64,000 nucleotides of DNA. Origin: Impatiens glandulifera (Eukaryota; Streptophyta; Magnoliopsida; Ericales; Balsaminaceae). The translations under genes and the position numbers were made by a program. The notes beneath the pieces were generated by a model. That model saw nothing but the letters and a program-made list of their open reading frames with translations. It did no database searches and was not told where the DNA came from. Below are positions 6,230 to 47,791 of this stretch, one piece after another; position 1 is the stretch's first letter, and each line of letters starts with the position of its first letter. The stretch is taken from the NCBI RefSeq assembly GCF_907164915.1, contig NC_061862.1:87778846-87842845 (forward strand), in the 5' to 3' direction.

Positions 6230-8735
6230 AAAAACCTGTTAAGATCTCATCTCTTAAAGGTAGACATTATTTTGTTGCTTCTGTTGATGACTTTTCTAAA
6301 AGAGTATGGGTGTTTACTATGAAGAAAAAGATGAAGTGTTTGAGATTTTCTTTAAATGGAAAATTCAAGTTGAAAACCACGCAGGAAGAAAGATCTAAAT
6401 TCTTCGAAATGATAATGGTAGAGAATACAAGAACGGTCCGTTCTAGAAGTTATATATGTTAAGAGTGTGGTATAGTTCGACACTTTGAAGTCAGAAAAAC
6501 ACGACAGCATAATGGAGTATCGGAATGTATGAACATGACATTGGTGGAAAAAATTCGATGCATGTTGTCTAATACTAGGTTAAATATGAAATTTTGAGTA
6601 GAGGTTGTGACATACGTTCAACATTTGGTAAATGGTCTACCATCATCAACACTTGGTGGCAAGACTCCATTAGAGATATAGTTTAGAAAATTTACAATTG
6701 ATTATAATTTTTTGTATATTTTTGGTTTTATGACATCTTATCATGTAGTTGAATCAAAGTTAGATCCATAAGCAAAAGATCTCTCTTTATGGGATTTAAT
6801 ACTAGAGTTAAAGGATATTGCCTCTAATGTTTAGATACAAAGAAAACTAGTATCCATAAAGATGTTACTTTTGATGAATTTTTAATGTTGAATAAGGTAA
6901 TACCAGTAAAGAATGATTGTACTCCAAAATAGGTAGAGTTTGAGCAGATAAATGTAAGTCCAACTACAAGTGACTCTCCAACAGTAGATGAAGAGTCAAA
7001 TGAGGAAGAGGTTCAGACCCAAGAAATTTCACAACAGCGTGAATCAATTGTGGTGAACAAACTAAGACGATGTATTCAAAAACCATCTCGGTTTGTTGAC
7101 ATGGCGTCCTATGCACTTTCAGTCATAGATAATGTTCTATCCACTTTTTTAAATGTCATTCGAAGTATTGAAAATAGAAAATGAAAAGGTGTTATGGAAG
7201 ATGAGATGCAATTTCCTCATAAGAATGAGACATAGAAGTTGACGCATCTACCAAAAAGGAAGAAGGCTATTGGTTGTAAATTGATTTTTCAATGAAAGAA
7301 GGATTTTTTGAATAAAATTAATGTTCGCTACAAGGCAAGATTGGTAGTTAATGGTTACGCTCGGAAGGAAGGAGTCAATTATAATGAGGTGTTTTCACCT
7401 GTTGTTTAACATTATTCCATTATAATCTTGTTAGCCTTGGTAGCGTAGATGAATTTGGAGCTAGCTCAACTAGATGTGAGCATTCCTACACGTTTATTTG
7501 AAGGAGAAATTCTACATGTCTCAACCAGATGAATTCAAAGTTGCTAATAAAAAATGGGTTTGCAAGTTGAAAAAATTATTATACGGGTTGAAGAAATTAT
7601 CGAGACAAGTTTATGATGGACCACAAGTATACAAGAAACAAATACGGTCCCTGTGTGTATTTGCGTAAACTACAATGAGTCTTATATCTATCTACTTCTG
7701 TACGTTGATGATATGTTGATAGCATCAAAGGGCTAAGATAAAATTGACAAATTGAAGCCTCAATTGAGTACATAGTTCGAGATGAAAGATTTAGAAAAAG
7801 CCAAGAAATTTCTTGGCATGGAGATAAGTAGGGATACAAAAAGAGGGAAGTTTTATCTAACACAAAACAATATTAAAAAAAGGTACTACAACTGTTTCGC
7901 ATTAATAAAGATTCAAAACATGTAAGTACTTCACTTCCTCCTCAATTGAAAGTTGAAAACTTGATGTATGTAGTGGTATGTATGAGACCTATTATTTCAC
8001 AGGTAGTTGGTGTTGTGAGCTGACACATTCATGATCCAGGTAAGGATCACTAACAAGCAATAAAATGTACTATACAGTAAGTATATCCAATAAAATATAT
8101 ATATTGGTTTAATATTTTAGTAGAATAGATCATTTGATCAATGTGTAGTTGGATATTGTAATTCTGCCTATGTAGGTGACTCAAATAAGCCACGATCAAC
8201 AGCTGGCTATTAGTTCATGCTAGCCAAAGCGCTAGTTAACTAGAAATCTTTTTTGTAGTCAACAATTACTTTATTTACAACAAAGCCATAACTTATGCAA
8301 TTATAGATGTCGTGAATGAGGCCATTTGGCTTCAAGGATTACTAAAAGATTAGGAATTGGTTAGGAACACATTGTGGTATATTCTAACAATCATAGTGTT
8401 ATTCACTTATCAAGAAATCAGTTTTTTCATACAAGAATGAAGCATATTAATGTTCGTTATCACTTTGTGCCTAAATGATTGGGAATTGGTTAGGAGCAAA
8501 TTGTGGTATATTCTGACAATCATAGTGTTATTCACTTATCAAGAAATCAGGTTTTTCATACAAGAATGAAGCATATTAATGTTCGTTATTACTTTGTGCG
8601 GAAAATTCTTGAAGAAGAGGTAGTATTTCTCCATAAAATTTGTACTATGGAGAATCCTGCAGATATGATGACTAAGGTTGTGACAAAAGAAAAATCTAAA
8701 CAGTGTTTAAATTTTGTAAATATCTTACGCGTTTA
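6230..8735 (+). pseudogene. Ty1/copia pol remnant
   Basis: Shifted and stop-filled frames retain the order of a copia polyprotein. Integrase-like VASVDDFSKRVWVF lies near 6270. An integrase C-terminal region (GGKTPLE and following) is near 6650. The reverse transcriptase is at about 7240-7860, including YVDDMLIAS and EMKDLEKAKKFLGMEISR. RNase H remnants run to 8735, the last frame being at 8503-8736. There are dozens of disabling changes, and gag, protease and a 5' LTR are not recognisable. It is clearly older than the three copia elements further right. A 129-bp internal tandem duplication lies in the RNase H part. Confidence 0.8.
8342..8599. repeat. 129-bp tandem duplication in copia RNase H
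   Basis: The bases around GGAATTGGTTAGGA at 8353 recur at 8482, and the similarity continues to CTTTGTGC at about 8470 and 8599. The two units differ at only a few positions, so the duplication is much younger than the decayed pol around it. Confidence 0.85.
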
Positions 8736-9422: not shown

Positions 9423-9541
9423 AAATCATCGTCGGAGGTTTGTCTTTCTGCTTGTGTCTTTATGCCTGTGTGAAAGACGAAGAAGAGAGAGAAAATGAAG
9501 GGTCTCCAATCCAACACTAGATCAAATTTCTTTAATATTTT
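9423..9541. repeat. Left part of a split duplicated segment
   Basis: About 120 bases, including GGAGGTTTGTCTTTCTGC and a GAAGAAGAGAGA stretch, match 23,487-23,575. In this copy the sequence is interrupted immediately afterwards by the 13.5-kb copia element; its continuation resumes at 23,044. Confidence 0.8.
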
Positions 9542-10157
9542 TGATAGATTAATTTAACCGGTTAAAATAAGAACTTAACAAAAACAATTTTCCTGTGCCG
9601 GAACGGTCAAGATTCTAACCGGTCAAGTAATCAAACTGGTTAGAAGAAGAAGCAAAAGATGTATCCAAAACCGGAAGTTATCCAGTTAACCTGAAGCTAT
9701 GAACAACCGGTAGACATCCTAAACCGAAATGAAGTACTCAACCTAAAACCGACGAGGAGACTACTTAAATAAAGAAGTCAAAGATATCAAATAAAGTACA
9801 ATCTACAAATTGGTGCAAACGAACACTTTGAGTATCTGCGGAAGATGATATCAAAGGATCAGACTATGACAATTGTCATATCCATACAAGTCTGATGATA
9901 CTCTGAAGGCTGCAGAAGATTGCCTGAAGAAACAGATACCATTTTGGTACAAGTCAAAGGTGCAGCTTTCCAGATGCAGGCAACTGGCCAACCGACAGTT
10001 GCCATATTAAGTAAAAGATAAATGAAGCCGGTCTGCTCCATGCCTTGGAAGCTTAAACCGCAATTAATGCAATGCTGAACCTCTGCTCAACCAATCAAAT
10101 TCAAGGATTACCCTGAAGGTATCCGTTGAAGAAATGTGACCGTTGGCACATTTCACC

Positions 10158-10164
10158 TATAAAA
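10158..10164 (+). promoter_or_regulatory. LTR TATA box
   Basis: CCTATAAAAG lies about half-way through the LTR, with an AT-poor transcribed-looking stretch after it. The same box sits at the same offset in the 3' LTR. It is the likely core promoter for the genomic RNA. Confidence 0.7.
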
Positions 10165-10474
10165 GAAGAAGCTGAAGATTAGTAAACACAGACACAACAA
10201 TTCAAAGTGCCAACAACCAAAAAGTTACAAGTTGTGTTTATCTCTCTACAAGATTCAAAGTTCAAGTGTGCATTTGAAGTGTGATTATAATTTCTGTGAG
10301 AATTGTAAGAGTGTTTATCGAGCAGTAAATAAGTCTCGATTGTGTAGTGTGGTTGAGTATTCCTTAGTGAATATCCTTCTCGCGGTTTGAGAAGAAGGGG
10401 TGACGTAGGAGTTTTATCTCCGAACATCCATAAAAACCTGTGTCTTGTTCTTTACTTTCTGTCGGTTCCACTTT

Positions 10475-10585
10475 CTTACCGACTCACACTGTCATAACCG
10501 ACTTACATCTTTTTAACCGACTTGCATTGTCATAACCGACTTACATCATTCTAACCGACTCACTAAACCTCAAACCGACTTTCTC
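10475..10585 (+). promoter_or_regulatory. Cluster of ACCGAC (DRE/CRT-core) words
   Basis: Six copies of ACCGAC occur in about 110 bases, in two slightly different 41-base subrepeats; the 3' LTR keeps five. RCCGAC is the known core bound by plant DREB/CBF factors. The cluster lies downstream of the TATA box, so a regulatory role is an inference. Confidence 0.45.
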
Positions 10586-10790
10586 CAAACTCTACCTCTA
10601 TTCATCCTGTATGTGTGTTGCTTCAGTCTGAAACAAACCACTTCCGCACTTGAACTCGGTTCAAGGGTTTGTGACAGCCTGTGTAGTATTGAAACCGGTG
10701 TTAATCTCTAATCGGATTAAACACCAACCGTTGAGTGATGTAGTGTTAGTCGGACCCCGGTCCCCCATCGGCGATCTAGATCCTAACAAT

Positions 10791-10802
10791 TGGTATCAGA
10801 GC
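10791..10802 (+). other. Primer binding site (initiator tRNA-Met)
   Basis: TGGTATCAGAGC lies two bases after the 5' LTR and is complementary to the 3' end of plant initiator tRNA-Met, the usual copia primer. Confidence 0.95.
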
Positions 10803-10841
10803 ATTTAATTTCAATACTCAAGCAACCCGAAGCAAGCAAGC

Positions 10842-12150
10842 ATGACTTTCGAGAAGCCTCCAATGCTACAAGGTGATGTTTTCGCCAACTGAAAGATACG
10901 GATGCACTTGCACCTAATCACTATGGATGATGAGATGTCGTTCATCCTTCCTGAAGGACCGATAAAGATTGATAAAGATAGAAAGGATTGGACAGCTGAG
11001 GATAAGAGGAGAAACCGTCTGGACAATCACGCCAAAAACCATATCTTCAAAGATTTGGACAGAAATACCTTCTATAAGGTCAGAGATTGCAAAACCTCAA
11101 AGGAAGTATGGGAAACAGTGATTCAACTTCATGAGGGAAATGAAAGAACCAAGGAAAATAAGATAATGGTGGTTACCCAGAAGTTTGAAAACATCAAGAT
11201 GAAGCCAGGAGAAACCATGAGGGAGTACAATGACCAGTTTACAAATGTGATAAATGAGCTATCATCTCTTGGAAAGAAGTATGATAACAAGGAAATAATC
11301 ATCAAAGCTTTAAGATCTCTTCCGAGTGCATGTGACATAAAGACGATGGTGATGAGAGAATCAAACTGCCTAAACAACATGAAGCTACACGATGAATTCG
11401 AAGATCTGAAGGCATATGAGTTTGAAATGAGATCTAGGATCGAAGATGAAGCATCAACCTCAACCGCTACTAAGGCACTAGTCACATCTATAGAACTGGT
11501 AGTTGTCGCACCGATCAAATCCGCTGAACAGTTCACTGAGGATGCAATGGCAATGCTTGCACAGAAGTTTGGCAGATTCATGAAGAAAAGCCAACCGACA
11601 AACAACAACTATAACTACGGTGATAAATCTAATATTAGATGTTATAATTGCAACTGTTTGGGACATTTCAGGTGGGAATACAGAAAACCAAGACGGGATG
11701 ACCGGAAGCCGGATGATCAAAACCAAAGAAACAACTACTCACAAATCGGAGAAGGGAGGGAAATTTAGAAAGCACTGATAGCCGATGATGGAGGAAGTCT
11801 ATGGGCTCACAGTGACAACGATGATGAACTCTCTTGTCTCATGGCAAACGAAGAACATGTATTTGATTTTTCTTGTGAAGAATTTACTAAAGATGATTTA
11901 GTTAATGCACTAAATGACATGGTAGTAGAATATAAAAATCTATTAACCTTAGTACCAACCCGACTCAACTTTAGAACCGACCCTATGGCACCAACTCGGT
12001 TCAATCTTGAAACCGATAGTATTCAACATGATGCAATCTTAGAAATCAACGCAGCACCTAAACTATCCTTTGAGACTGAACAGCTTAGGGAGTCAGTTCA
12101 AGAGTTGACCGAAGAGGAAGATGCACGAACAAGGTATCGAATAGCAGCAT
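10842..12150 (+). pseudogene. gag: gag of the SIRE-type element
   Basis: The gene starts at ATG 10,842 (MTFEKPPMLQGD). A stop stands in the same frame at about codon 17, where the family has a tryptophan, so the open frame restarts at 10,902. That frame carries the copia capsid region (KEVWETVIQLHEGNERTKENK and following). A zinc knuckle lies near 11,640, CYNCNCLGHFRWEY; the fourth ligand Cys is replaced by Tyr. A stop at 11,766 precedes the acidic linker (FSCEEFTKDDLVNALNDMV) found also in the gag of the element at 45.8-47.1 kb. Inactivation: at least two stops and one lost zinc ligand. Confidence 0.85.
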
Positions 12151-12239
12151 GAAAAAGATCTAGTGAAGCGGTGAACCAGATGTCTAATTATCAAAGACAT
12201 CCCAAATGAAAATTTGGTCTTGGATACAAAAACAACAAA

Positions 12240-15200
12240 TCCGCCAACCGGAACCGTTTCAACGAGATGAAACTCACAAAAGACAATCTTCCCTTTATAA
12301 GATTTGTCAAGAGCTCTTCAACCGACAATGAGGCACAACGTGACTCAAAACCGGAAAAAGAAATAAAATATGTAAGTCCAACTGACTCGCAAAAATGGCT
12401 TCATCCTGAGAGAAGGAAAGCCAACCGACCAACAGGTAAACAAACCGATCCATGACCACATAGAATAAACCAAACGTCACTACAAAATAAGGCACTCTTA
12501 GGACAACAGAAAGATGTCAAGCCAAGCACAGGAAAACTAATTAGAACCATAACCGGGAAAGTTATCCGACTTATTAAAGATTGGATACCGAAGGGACTAA
12601 TCAACCTTGGACCCAAGTAAATGTGGGTACCAAATAGTTGTAAATATGTGTATTTTATTGGTTATGAAGAAACGGCTAGGAAATTTTGAGTGGTACCTGG
12701 ACAGCGGTTGTTCTAGAAATATGACTAGAAACAGCAACCTTTTGACCGATATTAAAATAGAAACCGGTGCAATGATAGTTTTTGGTGACAACTCAAGAGG
12801 TAGAACTATGGGCAAGTGTAAGTTTGTCCATGGTAATTTAATAATTAACAATGTACTTTTAGTTGAAAATCTACATTTTAACCTACTAAGTATTAGTCAG
12901 ATGTGTGATGCTGGATATACTGTAGAATTTCTTAGACATGCATGCTTAGTTATAAACTCTCAGGGTAGCACACTACTAACCGGAAATAGGTTAGAAAATA
13001 TATACAAGGTAGACTGGAAAAATAAAGTGGAGCATCCTGTTTGCATGGTAGCTAAAAATGATCAAACTTGGCTATGGCATAAAAGGTTAAACCATCTAAA
13101 CCTCAAAACTATAAACTATATCCGCAATAAAAAGTTAGTTGAAGGAATTCCTGATATAACATTTAATAAGGATAAGGTGTGCTCAGCATGTCAAATGGGT
13201 AAACAAACTAAATCAACCTTTAAGAGTAAAGGAAACATTCAGTCTAACCGATGTTTAGACCTTCTTCACATGGATTTATTTGGACCGATTAGGGTCACCA
13301 GCCTAGGTGGTATGCATTACACTATGGTTGTTATTGATGATTATTCTAGATATACATGGGTCACATTCTTGGCATCTAAAAGTGAAACCGCATCCAATTT
13401 AATTACACTACTTAAGCGTTTACAAAATGAAAAATCGACACGTATAAATAGCATTAGGAGTGATAGAGGAACCAAATTTATAAATAGTACTCTAAATGCA
13501 TTTCTTGAGGAATCCGGCATTAAACATGAGTTGTCCAGTGCCAGAACTCCTCAACAGAACGGCCTGGCTGAGAGAAGAAACAGAACTCTCAAGGAAGCCG
13601 CAAGGTCTATACTAGCCGACTCAGGTGTTGCTCAAAAATTTTGGGCTAAAGCTATCAGCACTGCATGTTATACACAAAACCGGTCTTTGATTAACAAATT
13701 TCACAATAAAACACCATACGAAGTATATTTTGATAGAATTTCTAACATTCGGTATCTTAAGATTTTCGGTTGTAAATGTTACATTCACATTAATGGCAAA
13801 AACTACTTATCTACTTTTGATGCAAAATCTGATATTGGGATAATGCTAGGATACTCAGCGGTTAGTAAAGCATATAGAGTATATATAATACTAAACTTTA
13901 ACCGTGGAAGAATCTCTTCATGTTGTATTCGATGAATCGGTTGAAAGTAACACTGCATCATCCTTTGATCTACACAACAGATTGGAAAATCAGAATATCC
14001 ATTCTGATAGTGAAGATGAGATTCCAGTTTTCAGACAGTTTGTCCATGACCAAATGGGTGTTGTTGAAACCCAGCCGGATCAAGCTGCCACAAAGCAAAA
14101 AGCTGACACCCCGGCTCAAACTAAGAAAATTGGTCGGTCTAACACTATTGCTTAGCCTACCAATATGTCTAGCCTTGATCAAACAAACGGTAATTTGGTA
14201 GACATTCATAAACCGAATCTCAAAAGGAACACAAATCATCCTCCTGAACTTATTATAGGTGACCCTTCAAAACCCATCCAAACTAGGCGACAAAAACTGG
14301 AGGAATACTTTAATTCCGCTTTCATATCCCAGATTGAGCCGAAAAAGGTGGATGAAATATTGTTGGATCTGGATTGGATCTTAGCAATGCAAGAAGATTT
14401 AAACCAGTTTGAGAGTAATAAAGTCTGGTATCTAGTTTCTAGACCGAAAGATTAATCGGTCATAGGAACAAGATGGGTATTCAGAAATAAACTCAATGAA
14501 GACGGTTTGGTTACGAGGAACAAAGCTAGATTAGTGGCACAAGGATACAAATAGGAAGAAGGCGTTGATTTTGAAAAAATCATTTTCTCCTGTAGCTAGA
14601 ATTGAAGCCATTAGAATTTTTCTGGCCTTTGCTGCTTTCAAAAATTTTAAAGTATTCCAAATGGATGTTAAAAGTGCATTTTTAAATGGTGACCTACGTG
14701 AATAAGTATACGTTGAACAACCACCCGGTTTTAAAAATGCTGACCTGACTAATCATGTATATCGTCTAAATAAAGCTCTTTACGGTTTAAAACAAGCTCC
14801 TAGAGCTTGGTATGATACATTAACCGCATTTCTAATACATCATGACTTCACCATAGGTTCAGTAGATAAAACCCTATTTAAATTTGAGAAAAAGGGACAC
14901 ATTCTACTTGTTCAAATATATGTAGATGATATCATTTTCGGACCAATCGATCCTAAGCTGTGTGATAAATTATCAACCCTGATGACTAACAAATTTGAAA
15001 TGAGTATGATAGGAGAATTAAGTTTCTTCCTAGGTCTTCAGGTTAAACAACTCGAATGAGGAACTTTCATCAATCAATCCAAATATACAAAGGAACTTCT
15101 AAAGAAATTTGGGATGGAAACATGTTCCTCTGCCGCCACTCTAATGAGCTCATCAATCAAGCTGGATCAAGATGATGACGGTTAGGGAGTAGACGTGACA

Positions 15201-15873
15201 GTCTATCGTGGAATCATCGGTTCACTTCTGTACCTGACAGCAAGTAGACCGGACATATTATTTGCGGTCGGAATATGTGGAAGATTATAGGCTAATCCCA
15301 AATAGTCTCACTATACAGCCGCTAAACGAATCCTGAAATATCTAAAGGGAACCCCTAAAGTCGGATTATGGTATCCAAATGATTCAAGTTTTAACCTAAC
15401 AAACTATTTTGATGCAGACTATGCAGGATGTAAAGTTGATAGAAAAAGTACCAGCGGAACATGCCAATTCTTAGGTGATCGGCTTGTTTCATGGCACAAC
15501 AAGAAGCAAATGTCGGTTGCTACATCAACCGCAGAAGCTGAATATCTGGCAGCCGGAAGTTGTTGTTCACAATTTCTATGGATTCAACAACAACTAAAGG
15601 ACTTTGGTGTCACCGCCGAAGAGTCTCCAATTTTCTGTGACAACACAAGTGCCATAGCAATCACATACAATCCGGTTCTACACTCTAGAACCCAGCACAT
15701 CGACATAAGACATCATTTCATCCGGGAACGTGTCATGTAGAAGCACATCCGATTGGAATACGTATCAACTGATCAACAAGTAACCGATATCTTCACAAAG
15801 CCTCTACAGGAAGCTAAGTTTTCTTTCTTCAGAAACATCCTCTGTCTAGCCGATATAAATCAACTCATTTCTT
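12240..15873 (+). pseudogene. pol: pol of the SIRE-type element
   Basis: Protease WYLDSGCSRNMT begins near 12,690, with the aspartate of the DSG motif intact. The pre-integrase HHCC finger is at 13,077-13,200 (HKRLNHLN...CSACQMGK). The integrase core follows with D in HMDLFGP, D in RSDRGTKF and E in PQQNGLAERR. The frame opened at 12,607 ends at 13,935 after a frameshift near 13,890. Reverse transcriptase spans about 14,340-15,050 and contains YVDDIIF near 14,919; it has stops near 14,455, 14,550 and 14,703 and a frame slip near 14,580. RNase H covers about 15,230-15,870 (DADYAGCKVDRKSTSGT; TSTAEAEYLAA), ending DIFTKPLQEAKF. Many stops look like CAG/CAA or TGG codons changed by C-to-T or G-to-A. 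Confidence 0.9.
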
Positions 15874-16348
15874 AAAACTTTTAACCTCTAAAGGGAAAAA
15901 TCGGTTCGGACAGACAAAACCGACAGTTCTTCCTAAAATGTCAAAAACCGAATTTACCATCGTATTTATTGAAAAACCGCTTTGTCTATCAGTTACAGTA
16001 AACCGACCAGTTACTTAGTACATATACTAACTAACTGCATCGGGACCAATGACTGAAAACCAATCGGTTTGAATATAATATACTTTGGAATATTTGGCTT
16101 CCCAACAAAAATGGAACAACTGTCTGTGTTTGGACGTATCTGTTCTGAAAAGATTCCTTTTCAAAACAAAGCAGTCATGCCTCAAAAGACGTGAAGATAT
16201 GATATCTTTCATTGTCCAGGCCTATGACTCACATCCTTAGGCTGTAAACACACCTAATTCATGCAAGATGTTCTATCCTACGGTTAATAAACTGCATTAT
16301 ATGCTACCCACCAGATAATACTACTCACCTATATCACCCTCCAACTGA
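15874..16348 (+). other. Spacer between pol and the third-gene region
   Basis: About 475 non-coding bases. They are rich in AACCGA and ACCGG words, like the rest of the element. No splice acceptor can be singled out. The last 100 bases lead into the TATA box of the first extra gene. Confidence 0.6.
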
Positions 16349-16356
16349 TATATAAG
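16349..16356 (+). promoter_or_regulatory. TATA box upstream of extra gene 1
   Basis: TATATAAG stands 66 bases before the ATG at 16,415, with a C/T-rich leader between. An ATG at 16,361 lies only a few bases after the box and would not be in a transcript started from it. Confidence 0.5.
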
Positions 16357-16414
16357 TTAGATGAATATCAAACAAATATTCACACTCTCAACCTCTCATC
16401 TTACTAAGGCAAAA

Positions 16415-17157
16415 ATGTCTCAGTTCCAGAGCATTCTTCAAGTTGAGTTTGACACAGCACAAGGCACAAAACACTACGAAATTTTCAAGATGATCAAGTC
16501 TTTGGAGAGTACCGGTCTTCGATACTTCCTAGATGATAAACATATCATATTTCCTGAAACCGTAATCGAATTCTTTCACAATGCCAGAGTTTTTCGTGGC
16601 ACTCCATTTTTCAACACTCTTATCCAGTCAAGGGTAAGAGGAACAGTTTACGACTTCACCGAGCGAGACTTCGCTGGTGCTTCGACCTTCCCAAGGAAGG
16701 TTTTACAGACCTATCAATTTCGGCTGAACAGAAAGCCGAAATATCTCTGGAATTCTCCCGCTCCAACTCTCCGGTCGATGATCACGGTGCACGATCATCG
16801 TTGATGGCCGAATATCAGCTCCTCAACGACATCATTGGTAAGGCCATCCTAGGAAAGTATGTCACCAATACCTATTGTACCGCGATCTTTAACATCATGA
16901 CCGCCATAACGACCGATACTCCGGTAAACCGGTCTAGGTTGCTATTTGACAACCTAATCTGGATGATCAATACCCGACACACCAGTTTTATTCCTCAAAT
17001 AAGCTCTCTACTCATCGAAATCGGGGCTCTACTCTGTCCAGGCGAAGGGCTGAACCAATCCCAGGTCTTGACCAGGGATTCTACGGATTCTTTCTTTGAG
17101 CGGTTTGAGAAAGCATGGAAGAAAAAGCAGAGAAACCTCACCTCCTCCAACCACTGA
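16415..17157 (+). pseudogene. Extra retrotransposon gene, copy 1 (frameshifted)
   Basis: About 245 residues from MSQFQSILQVEFD at 16,415, in two frames that join near 16,750-16,800 (first frame ends 16,804; second opens at 16,801). The N-terminal half shares with copies 2 and 3 the pattern (L/V)(E/D)FD...(E/Q)...L(I/E)...GL(R/E)(Y/G/N)FL...VIEFF. The C-terminal half shares NRSRLLFDNLIWMI, against NWASVIFDNLKTMV in copy 2. I recall this fold-less family only as plant hypothetical or transposon proteins and know no activity. It ends cleanly at TGA 17,155 without the coiled-coil tail of copy 3. I preferred the ATG at 16,415 because the other copies also start M-S and because of the TATA position. 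Confidence 0.6.
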
Positions 17158-17477
17158 AGAATCACTCATTCGCACAATCGGTCATTTTGCTTCATGCACC
17201 GGTTGTATTTCTATCTATTTTAATCGATTGTGTCTTCCTTTTGGTCTACTGTAATTCACTTTTTTCTTAATGAAATTCTAGTACCTTTGAATTCTAACTG
17301 TATGAGAAACTACACAAACTTAGTTGGTTTCCAACTAGATTCTCAACCTTAGTCTCCGTAACCGGTCAAAATTACCACTTCCCAAGACGTTTTGAAAACA
17401 TAAATATTCTACAGCATTAATGAGACAAAACTGAATCTTGATCTTAAATGCTCTTACGTTACATCTCATTTCCAACC

Positions 17478-17485
17478 TATTTAAG
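17478..17485 (+). promoter_or_regulatory. TATA-like box upstream of extra gene 2
   Basis: TATTTAAG stands 74 bases before the ATG at 17,552 with a CT-rich leader, the same arrangement as for copies 1 and 3. The spacer from 17,158 holds nothing else I recognise. Confidence 0.45.
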
Positions 17486-17551
17486 ATACCTCTCACTCTC
17501 ATTCCAATACACTCCAAGACAACATTCTACATCTCTAAGAAAATCTGAAAA

Positions 17552-18247
17552 ATGTCTCATCCCATCCTCCGAAACTATTTGTGCATCGACTTTGACTCAG
17601 TGCTATCCCTTGATCATAATGAAACAAGGGAAGAAATCTTTGAATCTTTGATTGACACCGACCTCCGCGGATTCCTAGAGGAATCCGGACCCCTCTTTCT
17701 TCCAGAGGTACTAGAGTTCTTCTCCAATGCAGTTATGCATAACGGTGTCATCGTCTCCACTGTAAACACCAGTGTCATCACTCTATCGGAAAACACACTC
17801 GCTAGGATGTTCAACCCCCCAACCGAGGGGTTTTCGGACTTTCCACCACAGGTGAGCATGACAGTTGATGAATACGCTGAAATGTTCTCCGTCTCCGACA
17901 CACCGGTTCAAAACCACGGCTATAAAGCCCACCTTTCTCCCCACATCCAAATTTTGCATGAGATCGTCAGCCGGTCAATCCTCTGCCAGACCCCCAATCA
18001 AAACTACTCTAGAAAAGACTTTGACATGATGACCTATATCATCAGCCCAACTTCCATCAATTGGGCATCGGTCATTTTTGATAACCTGAAGACTATGGTC
18101 GAAATGAAGAAACAGTTCGGCTATGCTCCTCATTTGAGCCGGATCGTTCGAGCCTTCGTTCCAAACCTTAGACTGGGTAAACCGATGAATCCTTCAAATG
18201 TCCTCACCAAGGAAGCGGTGGAAGACAAAATCTCTAGGATGTTTTAG
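17552..18247 (+). CDS. Extra retrotransposon gene, copy 2 (open frame)
   Basis: 231 residues, uninterrupted. It starts MSHPILRNYLCIDFDSVLS and contains DTDLRGFLEESGPLFLPEVL (about residues 38-57) and NWASVIFDNLKTMV (about 170-183), both aligned with copies 1 and 3. No signal peptide, membrane segment or known catalytic motif is visible. It is the only copy of the three without a stop or frameshift, in an element whose gag and pol are broken, so it may simply be lucky or may have been kept. The protein corresponds to the N-terminal domain of the copy-3 protein without the coiled-coil tail. Function unknown. Confidence 0.65.
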   Translation: MSHPILRNYLCIDFDSVLSLDHNETREEIFESLIDTDLRGFLEESGPLFLPEVLEFFSNAVMHNGVIVSTVNTSVITLSENTLARMFNPPTEGFSDFPPQVSMTVDEYAEMFSVSDTPVQNHGYKAHLSPHIQILHEIVSRSILCQTPNQNYSRKDFDMMTYIISPTSINWASVIFDNLKTMVEMKKQFGYAPHLSRIVRAFVPNLRLGKPMNPSNVLTKEAVEDKISRMF

Positions 18248-18424
18248 GTTCTAAGTCGGTTAATTTTTTATTTTAACCTTGTATGTGTATCTCAAACCGA
18301 TCTTCATATCGGATCTATCATCATCATGTCTGTTTCATCCTTAATCAAATATCGGTTTAATTTACAAGGTTCAAATATCGGTTTAAATTCTCCACCGGTT
18401 AAATTGTTTACCGCTTCATTAATT

Positions 18425-18540
18425 ACCGCCAAAAATGTTTACCGCTTTAATCACTTCCCGTCAAAAGGCCTCCCGCCAAAAATATTGTCGCCCAAGAGTT
18501 TACCGCGAACCCGTTTTGGAGGGAAACCTTGGCGCCTTTT
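18425..18540 (+). promoter_or_regulatory. E2F-like sites before extra gene 3
   Basis: ACCGCCAAAAA (18,425), TCCCGCCAAAAA (18,471) and TTGGCGCC (18,530) match or nearly match the E2F consensus TTTSSCGS on one strand or the other. They lie 45-170 bases upstream of the copy-3 TATA box. Binding is not shown. Confidence 0.4.
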
Positions 18541-18584
18541 CTTGATGTGACGGTTCGCGTCGGTTAACATTCCAGGACGCTGCC

Positions 18585-18592
18585 TATAAATA
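18585..18592 (+). promoter_or_regulatory. TATA box upstream of extra gene 3
   Basis: TATAAATA, 118 bases before the ATG at 18,703, followed by a long CT-rich leader. It is the best-formed of the three internal TATA boxes. Confidence 0.55.
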
Positions 18593-18702
18593 ATATCATT
18601 CGTCTTCTTATTATCCTCTTCCGCGAATCTACTTTCTCTCTCTAGCAATCACTTAATCTTTCAAACTTTCAATCTTTCCAACTCCCAATCTTTCTAATCG
18701 AA

Positions 18703-21378
18703 ATGAGTCGTGATTCTGCACTTTTCACCCACATTTTCCAAGTAGACTTCGAAGATGTTCGAACCAACGGTTCGACGGAGGCTAAACAAGTGTTGAAACT
18801 TATAATTGCTTCGGGTCTGGAGAATTTCCTAAGTGGACCGTTCGTCATGTATCAAGACGCGGTCACGGAGTTCTTCAAAATCGTCGTACTCCTTGAGGAA
18901 ACCATGTCCGCAACGGTCGGTGGAAAACCGTTTCAAGTTACAAAGGAATCAATTGCTGAAGCTCTCCGCCTACCAACAAAAGGTTGTAACTTCACCGAGG
19001 ACATGGACGCCGACGAACTCTTTGCGGCTTGCTGTGCTGTATCGGATTCTGACCAACCGTTAGTGGTATACGGTAAGAAAATGGACCTGAAACCTGAATA
19101 CATACCACTTTGTGAAATTATCTCAAAGTCGGTCCAAGGAAGAGGAGGCAACTTCGACAGCCTAACAAATTCGAAGATTGAGATATTGTCCAGTATAGTT
19201 AGAGGTCTTCAAATCAACTAGGCCAAGGTCGTTTTCTTCAACCTCCGTGAGATGGTGGATCCGACTTCAAAACGTTCTCAGGGATATGCCGTTCAGCTCG
19301 GCAAGCTGATGCACCATTCTAATATCGAAACCGGCCCAAGTGTCCTTATACCTCATTGCAAGATAATAAAATCTACCCATTTTTTGAGAACAGCGGTTTG
19401 ACCAAGCAGAGCGAAGGCCTCAACCGCTAAACAACCATCCACGTGATCTAGGAAATCGCAGCCTATGAAGAAGAAGGCTCCGGAGGCAGAACAATCCGGA
19501 AGCAAAGCGGTTTCTCATACATCCAGGTCGGCAAATATTCAAACCGACATTCCGAATACGGAGGACTCTGCAGCTAGCTCTAGCCGCACCAACACCAACG
19601 ACACTGAGCAGAATCAGTTAAACAAAGGAAAAGGGAAGGTCGTCGATGAGGAAAATCCGGCCACAAATTTTGATGATGAATCCGGTCCAGTTAGTCAACA
19701 GGAGGCATCCGAAACCGTAGACGACGACATCCAAAAATTAGGAGAGGAACTTGTCTCCAAAATAATAAAGCAGCTCTTCAAGAAGGCACATATTGTGAGC
19801 AATGACTTCTATCGGTGGGTTCTTCTACGAGAGGAAGTCGGTTTTGCCGACATGTTACCAAAGTGTCCCGCTCATCAGAAATGGGAAAAACTGGTGGAAA
19901 TGGAGAGGAAGGTGTTCGAATTGACGAAGACAAAGAGCGTTGTCACTGCTCTTAGAAGAGGAAGGATGGTTAAAACGCACGCCCGGTTAAAAGAACTCAC
20001 CGGTCACATCCTTCACATTCAGGAACAAAACGTCTCTCCATATGACAAAAACCAAATCGATGTGATAGTGTTGGAGACGTTAAAGACTAAGGAACAAGAG
20101 TTGACCGATGAGATGACGCGGTTGAAATCGGAAGCCGGTCATCAAGAAGTTTCGCACATTTCAAGATCTTATCTTGACGATGATAAAGGATCTGAAGGAT
20201 CCAAATCCAATGTCGGTCCTAATCCAGAAGAGGCCGAGAATGCCCCTCCTCCACCGGATTCCACGATCAACATAATTGAAACTGAAACGGGTAATCCGCT
20301 CCCCGATCAGCCCGGGTCCCCACAAAGAGATAAATCGTCGGCGCTTGCAATAACTGAGGACCAAATCAAGGCATACATCGAGAAATTTTTCCAAGATGCC
20401 ATCATTCCGTGGCAGACTAAAGTGAAAGAGAGGGCGAAAACATCACACCGATTGGTTAAGTCTATCGGTGAGATGCTCAACTCTGCGATCCAACGGCTTA
20501 CAGCCATTAAAGAGAATCACGCCCCAACCGACCAACTGATCAGTTCAACGACACAGAAAACTACAACTCTTGAGGACGGTCTTGTTCAAACCGACTAGCG
20601 GCTCGGTTCAACGGATCAAAGATTAGCGACTCTTGAAGAGGGTCACAATCAAAGGTTAGCGACTCTTGAAGAGGGTCACACTCATACCGCTCAACAACTC
20701 ACGTCAACGGAGCAAAGGCTGGCATCTCTTGAAGAAGGCCATTTTCAATCCGGTATCCAGACCGGTTCGATACTTCAAAGAATGGAAGCCTTTGAAGAAA
20801 AGCATGCCCTGACCGAAGCCTCGCTACAAGCGGTCTCCGAACAGCTTGCGAAAATGATTGCGGCCAAGCTAGCGGCCGACGAGGCAATTGAGAAAGTGAA
20901 TGAGATCGCGGCCCAAAAACTCCAAGAAGCTGAGAACGAGAATATGCGGATACTAAAGGAAATGGAACAGGCGGATGCGAACCTAGCCCGACACGTTCAA
21001 GTGGTAGAAAATGTCGGACCGGAACAAGCAGTACAAGCGAATGAGGATGCGGATCGACTAATCCAACAAAGGATGATAGAAGAAGAAATAGCCGAAAGTA
21101 ATAAACTCTCTAATCTGGCTGCTCCCTCAACCAGACCGGTCATCAAAAAGAGAAAGGTCACCAAGAAGACAGCGACTAAACGGGCTCAACAACTGTTGGA
21201 TGACATTGCTAAACTGACCGATGCTCCTCCAATCAACCCGGATTCACCAGAAGTTGAAGAAGTTGCGGACGAGGCTATACCGCTGAGGAAGAGAGTGTGG
21301 TGCGTTAATGTGTTCCCACTCAGATCGGTCCCTCCACCAGCACAGGCTTCACCAACCACCGACACCTCAGGCGGTTAA
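18703..21378 (+). pseudogene. Extra retrotransposon gene, copy 3, with coiled-coil tail
   Basis: One frame of 892 codons runs from ATG 18,703 to TAA 21,376, broken only by stops at 19,219 (TAG), 19,399 (TGA), 19,444 (TGA) and 20,596 (TAG). All can be explained by single transitions; the first replaces the tryptophan conserved in copy 2 (IN*AKVVFFNLREMV against INWASVIFDNLKTMV). Residues 1-235 are the shared family domain. Residues 255-360 are low-complexity Ser/Asp/Glu/Gln-rich. After about 360 come charged helical segments and, at 20,625-20,760, tandem RLATLEEGH units typical of a coiled coil. A Lys/Arg-rich stretch (KKRKVTKKTATKR) near 21,150 could be a nuclear-localisation signal. SIRE-type elements often carry a coiled-coil 'envelope-like' third gene; I see no signal peptide or membrane segment here, so I would not call it an envelope. 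Confidence 0.7.
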
Positions 21379-21796
21379 GCATCCTCCTCCGGACTTGGCA
21401 GCGATCCGTGCAATCTGGGAAAGGGGATGATGGCTCACTATCTCCGGAAATATATGCCTAAAGACGACAAGAATAGAGAATAGACTTTCAATTATTTGTT
21501 CTTTATGTCAACTTTATAATATTTCCTATTTATATATATATAAAGTATTTTTGGAAACCGGCCTACATTTTACTTATTACATGATTTTGAATATTTTAAA
21601 TAAAATAATCAAAAAGGGAGAAATTGATAAGGTAAAAAATTTTCTAAAATTCTTCAAAAAAAAAATTTCTAAAAATTTTTCTAAATTTTTTTCAAAAATC
21701 CTTCCAAAACAAACAAAATTTTAAAACAACAGGCCTATTTCTTACTTCTTACATGATTTTGAATATTTTAAATAAAATAATCAAAAAGGGAGAAAT
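21379..21796 (+). other. 3' non-coding region with two polypurine tracts
   Basis: AAAAAGGGAGAAAT occurs at 21,783-21,796, directly before the 3' LTR, and also at 21,611-21,624. About 60 bases of flanking sequence and the first bases TGAT of the LTR edge are duplicated with it (offset 172). The second tract is the functional one by position. Between them is an A/T-rich stretch. Confidence 0.8.
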
Positions 21797-23043
21797 TGAT
21801 TGATAAATTAGACCAGTTAAAATAAGAACTTAACAAAAACAAATTTCCTGTGCAGGAACGGTCAAGAAACTATCCGGTCAAGTAATCAAACCAGTTAGAA
21901 GAAGAAGCAAAGGATGTATCCAAAACCGGAAGTTATCTGGTTAACCTGAAGCTATGAACAATCGATAGACATCCTAAACCGAAATGAAGTACTCAATCTA
22001 AAACCGACGAGGAGACTACTTAAAGAAAGAAGTCAAAGATATCAAATAAAGTACAATCTACAAATTGGTGCAAACGAACACTTTGAGTATCTACGGAAGA
22101 TGATATCAAAGGATCAGACTGTGACAATTGTCATATCCATACAAGTCTGATGATACTCTGAAGGCTGTAGAAGATTGCCTGAAGAAACAGTTACCATTTT
22201 GGTACAAGTCAAAGGTGCAGATTTCCAGATGCAGGCAACTGGCCAACCGGCAGTTACCATATTAAGTAAAAGACAAATGAAGTCGGTCTGCTCCATGCCT
22301 TGGAAGCTTAAACTGCAATTAATGCAATGTTGAACCTCTGCTCAACCAATCAAATTCAAGAATTACCCTAAAGGTATCCGTTGAAAAAATGTGACCGTTG
22401 GCACATTTCACCTATAAAAGAAGGAGCTGAAGAGGAGTAAACACAGACACAACAATTCAGAGTGCCAACAACCAAAGAGTTACAAGTTGTGTTTATCTCT
22501 CTACAAGATTCAAAGTTTAAGTGTGCATTTGAAGTGTGATTACAATTTCTGTGAGAATTGTAAGAGTGTTTATCGAGCAGTAAATAAGTCTCGATTGTGT
22601 AGTGTGGTTGAGTATTCCTTAGTGAATATCCTTCTCGCGGTTTGAGAAGAATGGGTGACGTAGGAGTTTTATCTCCGAACATCCATAAAAACCCGTGTCT
22701 TGTTCTTTACTTTCTGTCGGTTCCGCTTTCTAACCGACTCGCACTGTCATAACCGACTTACATCTTTTTAACCGACTCGCACTGTCATAACCGACTTACA
22801 TCATTCTAACCAACTCACTAAACCTCAAACCGACTTTCTCCAAACTCTACCTCTATTCATCATGTGTGTGTGTTGCTTTAGTCTGAAATAAAGCACTTCC
22901 GCACTTGAACTCGGTTCAAGGGTTTGTGACAGCCTGTGTAGTATTGAAACCGGTGTTAATCTCCAACCGGATTAAACGCCAACCGTTGAGTGTTGTAGTG
23001 TTAATCGGACCCCGGTCCCCCATCGGCGATCTAGATCCTAACA
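21797..23043 (+). repeat. 3' LTR of the SIRE-type element
   Basis: 1,247 bases beginning TGATTGATAAATTA and ending GATCCTAACA. It aligns without net gap to the 5' LTR; the substitutions I counted by eye (about 58) are mostly transitions and are densest in the first 20 and the last 500 bases. Confidence 0.97.
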
Positions 23044-23073
23044 ATTTTGTATAATTGTTTGCATGTTAAGTTA

Positions 23074-23639: not shown

Positions 23640-24639
23640 GCATTTGCACGAATAATAATATAAAAACGGTGAAAAAAATATTACGGTAAAAATGTGATAA
23701 CATTTTTAATTTTATTTTTAACCGTTTTAAGTTTATGGGCGGGTCAACCAACAATCCGACTCTAATATTCATTTACTCTCACATTGTAGAACGATCTCTA
23801 AAATAATTGATACAGTTTGATTTCTCAACTCAATTAGTTTAACCTTTAGAGTCCACTTCTTCCCCATACTACGAATGAAAGAAAAATGTAAATACTACCA
23901 TTAAAGTAGCACATGCGAGACTTACTATATCCATATGAATTATGTCCCCTATCTCTATAAATATGACAAAATTCTTCCATTATTCCTCACTAATTATAGT
24001 TAAATCTATAGCGCAAAATCAAAAGAGAATTATGACTGATTAAAAACTATTGATGAACCACCGCGTTCATCAAATTTGGTGTTGAATTAAAAATATAAAG
24101 TGTTATTAGTTTAGTTGGTTAAAATGGTTGTACTTGTTTTGTTAAGTTGCAAGTTCGAACCATACCTATAGCATTTTTTATTTTATTTTTAACCGTTTTA
24201 AGTTTATGGGCGGGTCAACCCACAATCCGACCCAAGTATCCATTTACTCTCACATATATATCTAAATTAACCACAGCTCTCGACCCAACAATCCGGACAC
24301 TTTAAAAATTAAGCATCATTATATATATATATATATAGATTAGTTAGTTAAAAAATTGAACTTATATTGTTAAAATGTCCCGCGTTCATCAAATTTGTTG
24401 TTGAATTTAAAATATAAAGTGTTATTAGCCTAAATGGTTAAAGGGTTGTACTTGTTTTTGTTAGGTTGCAAGTTCGAACCATACCTATAGCATTTTTAAT
24501 TTTATTTTTAACCGTTTTAAGTTAATGGGGGGGGGGTCAATCCACAATCCGACTCAAATATCCATTTATTCTAACATATATATCTAAATTAACTATAGTT
24601 CTCGACCCGACAATCCGGACACTTTAAAAATTAAGCAAC

Positions 24640-24723
<84 letters not shown>

Positions 24724-24935
24724 TTAGTTAGTTAAAAAGTTAAACTTATATTGTTAAAATATCCCGCATTCATCAAATTTGGTGTTGAATTTAAAATATA
24801 AAGTTTTATTAGTTTAGTTAGTTAAACGGTTGTACTTATTTTGTTAGGTTGCAAGTTCTAACCATGCCTATAACATTTTTAATTTTATTTTTAACCGTTT
24901 TAAGTTTATGGGCGGACGGGTCAACCCACAATCAG
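23640..24935. repeat. Array of about 320-bp tandem repeats with tRNA-like boxes
   Basis: A unit containing GTTCATCAAATTTGGTG, a TTAGTTGGTTAAA-like A box, a CAAGTTCGAACC B-box-like word, the stretch AACCGTTTTAAGTT and CCACAATCCGAC occurs at about 24,060, 24,379 and 24,764 in the same orientation, with a partial unit near 23,640-23,790. The third unit is lengthened by a (TA)n tract. The A/B-box pair suggests a tRNA-derived (SINE-like) origin of the unit, which is an inference. Confidence 0.75.
24640..24721. repeat. (TA)n microsatellite, about 80 bp
   Basis: An uninterrupted run of alternating T and A inside the third 320-bp unit; the preceding unit has a much shorter run at the same place, so this is an expansion within the array. 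Confidence 0.95.
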
Positions 24936-25454
24936 ATTTTTAGTGATGTTATTTAAAAAAATATATTATACTGTTTCATATTTCAAACATTTATAAATAA
25001 ATAAATAATTAATATCATTAATTTATTTATGGAATTAAAAATTTTGATTAATAATTCTTTCAAATTCGTTAATCAAATTCGTTAATCAAACTCGTTAAAT
25101 TCGATATTTAAATTAATGAAATTGATTTGTTATTTATATATATATAAATGTCATTTAGATAATAAATTAACGAGGTTTAAAATCATTAAGATATTTGGTA
25201 TAATTTTAACAATAAGGAATCAAGAACTGTAAAATTTTAAAAAGAAGACATGAAATCCCAATTAACACTAATAAGAAGTATAATTTAATAATTCCGTCAA
25301 AAAATTAAAATTATTATTTATAATGTCTACTTCTTAAATATAAAGGTATGGTAAATAAAAATTGTGACACAATTATGATATAAAATTTTGTGTAATTGAA
25401 AAATTATTGTTTGATTAAAAATTATATAGACGGATTATAAATATAATTAAAAAT

Positions 25455-42962: not shown

Positions 42963-43859
42963 TGTTAGGATCGGCGGCACCAATAGAGACGGGGGTCTGA
43001 CTATTGTTGACGACTTCGGATAAACAGTTTGATAGAAATCCTATTAGGGATTAATATCTTTTTCTATTCTTCACAAACCTTTGCAAACTGTTGAACGATT
43101 CAAGGACGGAAACGTTTGCTTAGGTTTGAAGCTAAAACCAAAGAAGGAGAAGATGACAGAATGTAAATAACACAGCAGATTATTTATGGATGTTCGGAAC
43201 AAACTCTCCTACGTCACCCCTTCTTCCAACCACCGGAAGGATTCACTATACTTTTTAATCAAATACAGTTAGCTGACTAGCTAATACTCTGTTGAATAGA
43301 ACAACCTCTATTCAACTTACAACACACTGTTAATGACTATCAAATAGTCCAATAACTTATCTTTTAACTTCACGTAGTGATTTACAAAATACACTTAAGA
43401 ATAAAATATCTAGAGAGAGAGAGTAAGTTTATTCAAGAAATTAAGCTTCTGGAAATCTTTTTATTCAATGAGAGAGAAAGCTTCAGTTTCTGTCTTGTTT
43501 TCTGCTTTTTTTTTTCATCTTCATCCTTAGGCAGCAATATATTTTTGAAAAGCTTCAACGGTCGAATCTTCCTTTTGGATACGTGGCAAGCATCCATTGG
43601 AAGGCCGCCCATAGTACACAAGTACAGCAGGCACTGTGCATATGGAGCGTGGCCGTACCAATCTGGTAGTGGCCAAATATTCTTCTGAAATTGTCCTGCA
43701 CAGAACAAGTAGTAGGAAGAATATTTACTTACGTGGCATTCATCAATTGATTACAGCTGACTGTCGTACTGATCTTCATAGGAGAGTGGAGCAGGAGTAG
43801 CGTACAGCTAGAGCACGTGGGTAGGCGGGTACTAGCTTCAAGCATACTGCTTAAGCTGA

Positions 43860-44750
43860 GCATTAGACGTATTTCAGTTAGACGGATTGTGAAAATCAGT
43901 CTAATGAAATTTAAACATCCTCGTCTAATAATAGAGTCTATTAGACCGTCTGGTCTAATAGAATTAGACTTACGTCTAATTACAATAACCATTAGACTGC
44001 ACGTCTAATTCCAGTTCTACCTTAGACTAATCTGAAGGAGTTAGACTCACGTCTAACTTTCACTTAATTAGACTACACATCTAATTATCCAATAACCATT
44101 AGACTGCACGTCTAACTCCACTGAGTTAGATTGCACGTTTAATTCCAGTTCTACCTCAAATTAATCTGAAGGAGTTAGACTCACGTCTAACTTTCACAAT
44201 CCATTAGACTTACGTCTAATTCCGCAAATATATTAGACTTACGTCTAATTACGCAAATACATTAAACATCCCCGTCTAATAACAGAGTCTATTAGACCGT
44301 CTGGTCTAATAAAATTAGATTTACGTCTAATTACAATAACCATTAGACTGCACGTCTAACTCCACTGAGTTAGACTGCACGTCTAATTCCAGTTCTACCT
44401 CAGACTAATCTGAAGGAGTTAGACTCACGTCTAACTTTCACTTAATTATACTACACGTCTAATTATCCAATAACCATTAGACTGCACGTCTAACTCCACT
44501 GAGTTAGATTGCACGTTTAATTCCAGTTCTACCTCAGATTAATCTGAAGGAGTTAGACTCGCGTCTAACTTTCACAATCCATTAGACTTACATCTAATTC
44601 TGCAAATATATTATACTTACGTCTAATTCTGCAAATACATTAAACTTATGTCTAATTCCTTGCATCTATTAGACTCCACGTCTAATTCCTATGGTTAGAC
44701 CCCCACGTCTAACATTAGACGTTTTTCATAAAATCGGTCTAACTCCGCGT
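43860..44750. repeat. Palindromic TTAGAC/GTCTAA array in the LTR
   Basis: About fifteen perfect and eight imperfect inverted motifs of the form TTAGAC-N(4-5)-GTCTAA (for example TTAGAC TGCAC GTCTAA). A longer one, TTAGACC GTCT GGTCTAA, occurs twice. Higher-order copies repeat at about 350 bases: the block starting near 43,917 recurs near 44,266. It lies in the U3 part of the LTR. Confidence 0.9.
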
Positions 44751-44814
44751 TGACTTTGCTCGCGCGCGTTGACTTTCAGTTGTGCCTGCAAATTAACAAA
44801 ACTCTAATTATTAA

Positions 44815-44888
44815 TTATGCACCTGGTGAGATTAGAACCCAGGTCACCTGTGTAAAAGGTAGGCATGCTTACCACTACACCACTTAAG
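44815..44888 (-). repeat. tRNA-like segment in the 3' LTR
   Basis: On the minus strand GTGGTGTAGTGGTAAGCATG (A-box-like) is followed by GGTGACCTGGGTTCTAATC (B-box-like). It resembles a decayed tRNA and matches the copy in the 5' LTR at 47,584-47,655. Confidence 0.45.
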
Positions 44889-45282
44889 ATGTTGATATCT
44901 AAGTATATATTTATATATTCATATATTTGATATGACTAACAATTATTGAACTTAGCTTTATCCAAAAACTATTTCATCAATCATTAAATCAAATTTTTTA
45001 AGTTATTTTTAAATCAATTAAAAATTTCAACCCAACAATTCCCCCTTTTTGATTATTTAAACTAAATTATCAAAACCTGTTGAGTTCATTAAAAATTTCA
45101 ACCCAACAATTTCCCCCTTTTTGATTATTTAAATTAAATTATCAAAACTAGTTGAGTTCATTATTTAAACATAATCTAGGAATTATTATAATCCAACAAT
45201 CCTAAAAATATTTCTAAGGTAAGAAAACTTAGACTCGAGAAGTGGCTTTGAGAAGATGTCAGCCACTTCAGGCTGCTGATTG

Positions 45283-45825
45283 TCATATGCTATGTCCGAG
45301 CAGCCAGCTGTGCAGATGTCGTTTGGCTCTTCCAATCTGCTTTCCTGTTTTACCTGCATTCAAAGACAATAACGAATCTGGTACCCATTTTCCTTTGGGT
45401 CCATGTCTTATTAGTCCTTTGGGAATCCATACTTTGATTATTTTTATGGATTTCCCATGTTGCGTTGTGATCGGTGCGTATGATTTAGGCTTAGAAGACG
45501 TCTTCCTGCTAGCAGCTGAACTGTTAATCTTAGAGGATGGTTTTTGTCTAAAACTCTTTGACTTCCTGTTAAGTTTTAATATGCGAGACTTGCTGGATGC
45601 TTCCATCTTAAGTTTCAACCAGCTAACAGTTGGCGGAACATAAGTAATCTCATCCTTTAAGGTTAACTTATCACAGCTTGGATCAGTTCCATTCTCAGTT
45701 AAGCTCCCTTTGACAAAGTTTATAGACTTAAACTTGTCAGTTTCTGGGTTTAACTTTTCATAAGACTTGTCTGAGTCATTGTCATCAAATCCTAAATCGG
45801 ATTTGCATCCGGCAGGCCTCAACAT
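45283..45825 (-). pseudogene. Gag-pol linker, 3' part deleted
   Basis: 180 codons in the same frame as gag, separated from it by one TAG. The basic stretch with KVWIPKGLIRHGPKGKWVPD corresponds to the start of pol in SIRE-type elements (compare DWIPKGLI near 12,580). After about 45,310 the frame runs out of phase into RNase H sequence, which marks the deletion join. Confidence 0.7.
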
Positions 45826-45834
45826 ACTTATCTG

Positions 45835-47097: not shown

Positions 47098-47129
47098 GAT
47101 TCAGATTCTTTAGAAGCTTGAGAATAGAA

Positions 47130-47149
47130 AACGAGGCTTTGATACCAAT
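47130..47149 (-). other. Primer binding site of the gag-only element
   Basis: Minus strand TGGTATCAAAGCC follows the 5' LTR after two bases and matches initiator tRNA-Met with one change from the form in the other two elements. Confidence 0.85.
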
Positions 47150-47791
47150 TTTTAGGATCGACGGAACCAATAGAGACGGGGTCTGACTATTGTTGACGAC
47201 TTCGGATAAACAGTTTGATAGAAATCCAGTTAGGGATTAATATCTCTTTCTATTCTTCACAAACCTTTGCAAACTCTTGAACGATTCTAGGGCAGATTGT
47301 TTATGGATGTTCGGAGCAAACTCTCCTACGTCACACCCCTTATTCCAACCACCGGAAGGATTCACTATACTTTTCAATCAAATACAGTTAGCTGACTAGC
47401 TAATACTCTGTTAAACAGAACAACCTCTGTTCAACTTACAACACACTGTTAATGACAACTTACAACACACTACTAATGACTATCAAATAGTCCAGTAACT
47501 TATTTCTCAACTTCACGTAGTGATTTACAAAATACACTTAAGAATAAAATATCTAGAGAGAGTAAGGCGTTGACTTTGCTCGCGGAGGTGAGATTCGAAC
47601 CCAGGTCACCTGTATGACAGACCCGCATGGTTACCACTACACCACTTAAGATGTTGATATCTAAATATATATTTATATATTTGATATGACTAACAATTAT
47701 TGAACTTAGTTTTATCCAAAAACTATTTCATCAATCATTAAATCAAAATTGTTAAGTTATTTTTAAATCAATTAAAAATTTCAACCCAACA
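47150..47791 (-). repeat. 5' LTR of the gag-only element, 642 bp, internally deleted
   Basis: Aligns with both ends of the 2,075-bp 3' LTR but lacks the middle. One join is at GAGAGTAAG/GCGTTGACTTTGC and a smaller one lies a few bases later near GCTCGCG. Its inner end reads CTAAAA instead of CTAACA. It includes a tRNA-like segment (47,584-47,655) with a good B box, GGTTCGAATC, and an Asp-type anticodon-like CTGTCAT. Confidence 0.9.

Follow-up and report, generated by a model that had tools for sequence, protein, structure and literature searches.

Three PF20167-type genes in a Sirevirus-type retrotransposon of Impatiens glandulifera and a possible VANC-like role

An initial annotation of a 64,000-nucleotide stretch of the Impatiens glandulifera genome (NCBI RefSeq assembly GCF_907164915.1, contig NC_061862.1, positions 87,778,846 to 87,842,845; hereafter the window) claimed three copies of one gene between RNase H and the 3' long terminal repeat (LTR) of a Ty1/copia retrotransposon. 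Their position, number, and order hold. We show here that the three genes are homologous and under purifying selection, that each is preceded by a conserved TATA box, and that the short word ACCG/CGGT is enriched and conserved in the element. The predicted fold of the shared domain resembles that of VANC21, a DNA-binding anti-silencing protein of another plant transposon, and we put the probability that the three-gene module as a whole works by a VANC-like mechanism at about 0.55.

Three homologous genes in one insertion

One complete Ty1/copia insertion occupies 9537-23048 of the window; it is a single insertion because an LTR pair and a perfect 5-bp target duplication, ATTTT on both sides, enclose it. 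The 1247-bp LTRs differ by 58 substitutions in 1247 columns (Kimura two-parameter distance, 0.048), and gag and pol are broken by 12 in-frame stops in their assigned frames, one of which (12618) lies beyond the point where the next open frame starts. As first described, copies 1 and 2 are tailless and copy 3 is tailed, and the copy-3 frame is indeed 892 codons long and contains four internal stops (19219, 19399, 19444, and 20596; final stop, 21376). Neither of the two outcomes that the annotation named as refuting it was observed, namely single-copy siblings (see below) and nested insertion of copies 1 and 2. These copies bear no sign of nesting, since the whole element lies between the LTR pair and its target duplication and only repeats of 14-31 bases turned up in a search of 15600-18760. 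These DNA-level facts about the element and its copies are firm.

Homology of the copies was measured by Smith-Waterman alignment against 1000 shuffles. Most pairs bear out the claim that all three can be aligned: the N-terminal part of copy 1 matched copy 2 (z 12.9) and copy 3 (z 11.6), its C-terminal part matched copy 2 (z 18.5), and copy 2 matched both copy 3 (z 17.4) and the end of copy 3 (z 6.5). The claim does not extend to the C-terminal part of copy 1 against the two copy-3 pieces, for which the scores were not significant (z 1.6 and 0.5). The window copies are 24-35% identical to one another, and by score copies 1 and 2 are nearer each other than copy 3.

A sibling search with copy 1 and part of copy 2 as the query gave 41 matches including the window (40 of 2386 candidates scored), and 35 of the 40 nonwindow matches were fetched. 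The siblings are not single-copy: at least 90% of copies 1, 2, and 3 and the tail is held by 28 of 35, always in order, while one sibling falls short of this measure for copy 2, three for copy 3, and seven for the tail. No element with one or two copies emerged, either from this query, which is blind to elements without copies 1 and 2, or at the five loci read in two further families (below), which were entered by tail and copy 3.

Over all sibling and window pairs, which are not independent, the ratio of nonsynonymous to synonymous substitution rates (dN/dS) in the right frame was 0.265 for copy 1, 0.441 for copy 2, 0.376 for copy 3, and 0.444 for the tail, against 0.72-1.12 in shifted frames. 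An earlier run with up to 18 siblings in plus orientation gave the same picture. These values show purifying selection on the copies and the tail, and past constraint was probably stronger because decay after insertion raises dN/dS. Stop-free sequence is found for copy 1 in 6 of 35 siblings, for copy 2 in 19 of 34, for the copy-3 domain in 8 of 32, and for the tail in 0 of 28. Copy 1 of the window is split between two frames near 16.68 kb, whereas that of at least seven siblings is open over 234-244 amino acids. Ten of 32 siblings have a stop at the codon of the 19219 stop in copy 3, perhaps as a shared subfamily mark or through repeated deamination.

The row of three genes is not confined to these siblings. 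A second family, marked by P0121 and found through the tail (82 scored matches of 7556 candidates), has copies 1, 2, and 3 in order at all four fetched loci, behind an RNase H 88-91% identical to that of the window; amino acid identity to the window, taken by piece, is 59-79% for copy 1, 49-59% for copy 2, and 51-62% for the N-terminal part of copy 3. A third family was read at one locus, L048, where RNase H is 85% identical and three genes are open (stop to stop, 262, 287, and at least 704 amino acids). By coordinates across three match lists, L048 and at least six further loci carry all three genes, and genome-wide, among the scored matches of this family, 129 of 146 for copy 1 and 111 of 136 for copy 2 are free of stops (counted by eye). 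With 18957 copy-1 and 17673 copy-2 first-look candidates and identities of 93-100% and 85-100% among those scored, this family is apparently large and young, with open extra genes.

When 14 pieces from the window and the second family (C-terminal half of the domain) are placed in a tree, they group by position, with strong support for copies 1 and 3 and 89/87 for copy 2, the root being a midpoint without an outgroup. The row therefore predates the split between the family of the window and the second family. It had been proposed that this lineage acquired a gene and amplified it. One gene family does stand three times within one element lineage, but the amplification, judged from these sequences, is old, because the row is common to three families of this genome.

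Predicted fold, promoter boxes, and a recurrent word

Copies 2 and 3 of the window match Pfam family PF20167 (Transposase_32) with 31.3 and 27.2 bits, under the curated cut-off of 45 bits, which the copy-3 site exceeds in four fetched siblings (L019, L020, L027, and L036, placed by coordinates). Genome-wide, 150 of 3707 candidates were scored, and 43 of these pass it (by-eye count). Copy 1 has no Pfam match of its own to PF20167. DUF1985, the family of the VANC proteins (VANC/DUF1985), does not appear in the Pfam results. The structure model of copy 2 reached a predicted local distance difference test (pLDDT) score of 90.6, and it is the predicted fold that resembles VANC21. A single-sequence fold of copy 2 (pLDDT 35) was discarded. 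A protein database search with copy 2 gave 102 candidates, none at E ≤ 1; a viral contig search gave 13 pattern matches and no relative; the PDB sequence search returned no match for copy 2 and, for the profile, noise alone; and the best match in a viral structure library was not under E 0.27.

The tail is charged and carries a basic run, KKRKV, that resembles a nuclear localization signal (NLS). Its description as a coiled coil is unproven because a simple heptad test (0.55) did not exceed the shuffles (95% point, 0.63). The Dorcoceras gene model P0030 was considered as a tail carrier and rejected (z 1.3). For a membrane helix, the usual 19-residue hydropathy is about 1.6; the window pieces peaked at 1.48 and the open frames of the third family at 1.27 (no dedicated predictor was used), and hydropathy thus gives no support to the envelope role associated with such genes.

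In the window by itself, the TATA boxes upstream of the copies (Table 1) are weak evidence. Among siblings, their conservation lies at the 96th (copy 1), 96th (copy 2), and 100th (copy 3) percentile of linker 8-mers. Ranked as 10-mers, the copy-3 box comes first and the copy-2 box first in a tie with one other, and the copy-1 box falls outside the eight best kept of its linker. The five second- and third-family loci have a TATA at -66 to -99 before copy 1 (5/5), -85 to -110 before copy 2 (4/5), and -116 to -120 before copy 3 (5/5). Because each copy has its own conserved box, the three look like separate transcription units. Divergence (p) is lower in the linkers before copies 1 and 2 (0.082 and 0.091) than at four-fold sites of the genes (0.121-0.158); in the linker before copy 3 it is 0.113. 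DNA similarity among the three linkers was not significant. The 16 CGG/CCG of the copy-3 linker exceed the maximum of 15 in 5000 shuffles, while its plain CpG count (21) was reached by some; repeated CGG-CCG boxes have been reported 5' of Sirevirus ENV genes (PMC2829016).

ACCG/CGGT is the top 4-mer by z in the LTR, the linkers, gag-pol, and the extra genes. Per 100 bases, it occurs 0.99-3.56 times in every region from the 5' LTR through the tail end, 0.24 times between the tail and the polypurine tract (PPT), and 0.18 times in the AT-richer rest of the window, being about 6 to 20 times denser in the element than in that remainder. Synonymous shuffling gave 58.1 expected against 103 observed (z 7.9), with six control words at z -3.0 to -0.1. 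Taken singly, 5 of 13 pieces are significantly enriched (integrase, copy 2, the N-terminal part of copy 3, and both tail pieces) and 8 are not. A control copia element at 49.5-55.7 kb has no such enrichment (ratio, 0.65). At four second-family loci ACCG/CGGT is again first, and in L048 CCGG, AACCG, and AACCGG lead. Across siblings, its sites are unchanged in 0.722, compared with 0.636 for other CpG words pooled (p 0.0018; coding alone, p 0.011; linkers alone, p 0.043); among the single words, GCGC is better conserved and CGAG equally well. The word that VANC21 binds is nine bases long and dense in the transposon that carries VANC21, and VANC proteins bring about methylation loss (PMC5735166). 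A short word dense in its own element is likewise present here, as a putative binding site.

At 10478-10580 in the LTR, after its TATA box, are six ACCGACT units, mostly 19-20 bases apart.

Sirevirus-type signals and other features of the window

By its sequence signals the element is Sirevirus-type; we do not claim membership because the inverted repeat around the junction of PPT and 3' LTR was not significant (score 10.0 against 9.5 in shuffles, p 0.43). Such a repeat is frequent but not universal in Sireviruses and is missing from three elements of the published set too (PMC2829016). The Sirevirus primer-binding site follows the 5' LTR (Table 1), and by-eye comparison with PMC2829016 supports the C-rich integrase signal CGGACCCCGGTCCCCC near the LTR 3' end and the TATA box TATAAAAG near mid-LTR. 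The PPT occurs twice, its octamer being of the AAGGGAGA type versus the published AGGGGGAG, and the AT/TG attachment site is present as well.

Table 1. Features of the element (window positions)
Feature	Position	Strand	Remark
Target-site duplication ATTTT, left	9537..9541	.	Same five bases at 23044-23048
5' LTR, TG...CA	9542..10788	+	TATA at 10158; C-rich stretch close to 3' end
Primer-binding site TATCAGAGC	10794..10802	+	Agrees with Sirevirus site of PMC2829016
gag, two open stretches	10893..12149	+	Pfam PF14223, 1e-24 on 10902-11765
Pre-integrase and integrase part of pol, open	12601..13932	+	Pfam PF13976, PF00665, PF25597, PF22936
Reverse transcriptase and RNase H, interrupted by stops/frame changes	14156..15872	+	Pfam PF07727, 1e-29 on 14706-15056
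TATA box of copy 1, TATATAAG	16349..16356	+	66 bases before ATG; kept in 30/33 siblings
Copy 1 of domain, tailless	16415..17157	+	Split over two frames here
TATA box of copy 2, TATTTAAG	17478..17485	+	74 bases before ATG; kept in 34/35 siblings
Copy 2 of domain, tailless, 231 amino acids, open	17552..18247	+	PF20167 2.4e-7, under cut-off; model pLDDT 90.6
CpG-rich linker before copy 3, 16 CGG/CCG	18248..18584	+	Highest CpG observed/expected of 267 windows
TATA box of copy 3, TATAAATA	18585..18592	+	118 bases before ATG; kept in 32/33 siblings
Copy 3 of domain	18703..19398	+	One internal stop at 19219; PF20167 4.3e-6 on 18703-19218, under cut-off
Charged C-terminal tail of copy 3	19465..21378	+	KKRKV at 21145-21159; relatives P0121, P0122
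First PPT copy	21611..21622	+
Second PPT, then AT/TG and 3' LTR	21783..21794	+	AT/TG attachment as in PMC2829016
3' LTR	21797..23043	+
Target-site duplication ATTTT, right	23044..23048	.

Elsewhere in the window, a second Sirevirus-like element (42992-47800, minus strand; gag 45% identical in amino acids, with a PPT) has no integrase or extra-gene match and is thus perhaps gag-only and nonautonomous. Its commonest nontrivial 8-mer, TTAGACGT, with 18 counts, is possibly a family word of its own; 276-base tandem repeats inflate the counts. The copia element used as the word-count control (49479-55731; LTR blocks 94-97% alike, primer-binding site at 49962) has no match to the extra genes. Left of the main element is a tandem 129-base duplication (8342-8599), and right of it (24061-24957) are repeats, some 320-384 bases in length, that contain long stretches of TA.

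A VANC-like reading and its alternatives

We propose that the element carries an accessory module of three genes of one family, PF20167, each of which would have a TATA promoter of its own to drive transcription. In the nucleus, to which the proteins would go, the VANC-like domain may bind DNA and recognize an AACCG/CCGGT-type word accumulated over most of the element, and binding would free the element from silencing or drive its transcription. The charged copy-3 tail, with its NLS-like run, may recruit or multimerize, and copies 1 and 2 may be tailless partners with other specificities or roles. More tentatively, and at somewhat less than even odds, LTR retrotransposons would run a three-protein, sequence-specific anti-silencing system, in which three VANC-fold paralogs expressed from three internal promoters would read a short word built into most of the element, coding sequence included.

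Extra genes of Sireviruses are often stated to be envelope-like or structural. The position between pol and the 3' LTR and the CGG/CCG cluster that precedes copy 3, of a kind described 5' of the Sirevirus ENV gene, would suit such a role; we regard it as very unlikely here, since the hydropathy maxima stay under the usual value, the tail has a basic NLS-like run, and the predicted fold is VANC21-like. That run would also fit nuclear accessory proteins that aid import of the pre-integration complex or choice of integration site and have no part in anti-silencing or transcription, and the PF20167 open reading frame (ORF) of sunflower Athila is predicted to be nuclear too (PMC11728184). Such an aid would by itself leave unexplained both the word that is spread and kept through the element and the three genes with their own TATA boxes, and we consider it unlikely.

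Stops in many siblings could suggest passenger DNA without function, whether captured gene pieces or nested insertions, and the window has more stops in the copy-3 frame (4 internal) and in reverse transcriptase-RNase H (6) than the 0.33-1.07 per simulated piece that a simple neutral model predicts. However, dN/dS is far below 1 in the right frame only, and most scored third-family matches of copies 1 and 2 are stop-free, which makes this reading extremely improbable. The origin of the row is a separate matter. The three genes could have been captured singly from other elements or the host, which is compatible with a VANC-like module; low identity among the window copies, upstream linkers without significant DNA similarity, and the abundance of PF20167 in the genome fit this, but the same order in three families and the closer scores between copies 1 and 2 speak against it, and we find serial capture somewhat doubtful.

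If the broader anti-silencing reading is true, many plant LTR elements would carry VANC-type factors in the form of their PF20167 "transposases," and one protein class would defend DNA transposons and retrotransposons alike. A VANC-like role would also mean that the name of PF20167 needs correcting. The role of Sirevirus "envelope-like" genes becomes directly testable, with a predicted fold, a candidate word, and three promoter boxes in hand; about 21% of the maize genome consists of Sireviruses (PMC3599292). In sunflower SIRE elements, CG methylation falls between the LTRs while CHG methylation stays high (PMC12844716), and the CG fall fits the anti-silencing reading without proving it. Unpublished VANC-DNA structures are mentioned in a 2026 meeting report (PMC12859917). 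Searches of an open-licence literature library turned up neither a Sirevirus with three extra genes in tandem nor an LTR element with a VANC-fold protein, which is not proof of absence.

Among known systems, VANC21 of VANDAL21 is carried by a Mutator-like DNA transposon, whereas the carrier here is a Ty1/copia LTR retrotransposon with three paralogs that have their own TATA boxes; identity to VANC21 is 10%. The candidate word here is dispersed through coding and noncoding DNA and does not lie in oriented tandem repeats. An additional 3' ORF without an assigned role is common in SIRE elements (PMC6317226). Like ours, Sirevirus/SIRE elements with one such ORF (eORF-3'F, "envelope-like") have the primer-binding site, the attachment site, a PPT in two copies, and a cluster of CGG/CCG that precedes the last gene; here, in contrast, three homologous genes follow one another, each preceded by a conserved TATA box, and hydropathy shows no envelope feature. 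The sunflower Athila 14 ORF(+) likewise has a partial PF20167 match, and it is predicted to be nuclear and carries an NLS, but there a single such ORF lies in a Ty3/gypsy element, and the section that describes it gives no VANC link (PMC11728184).

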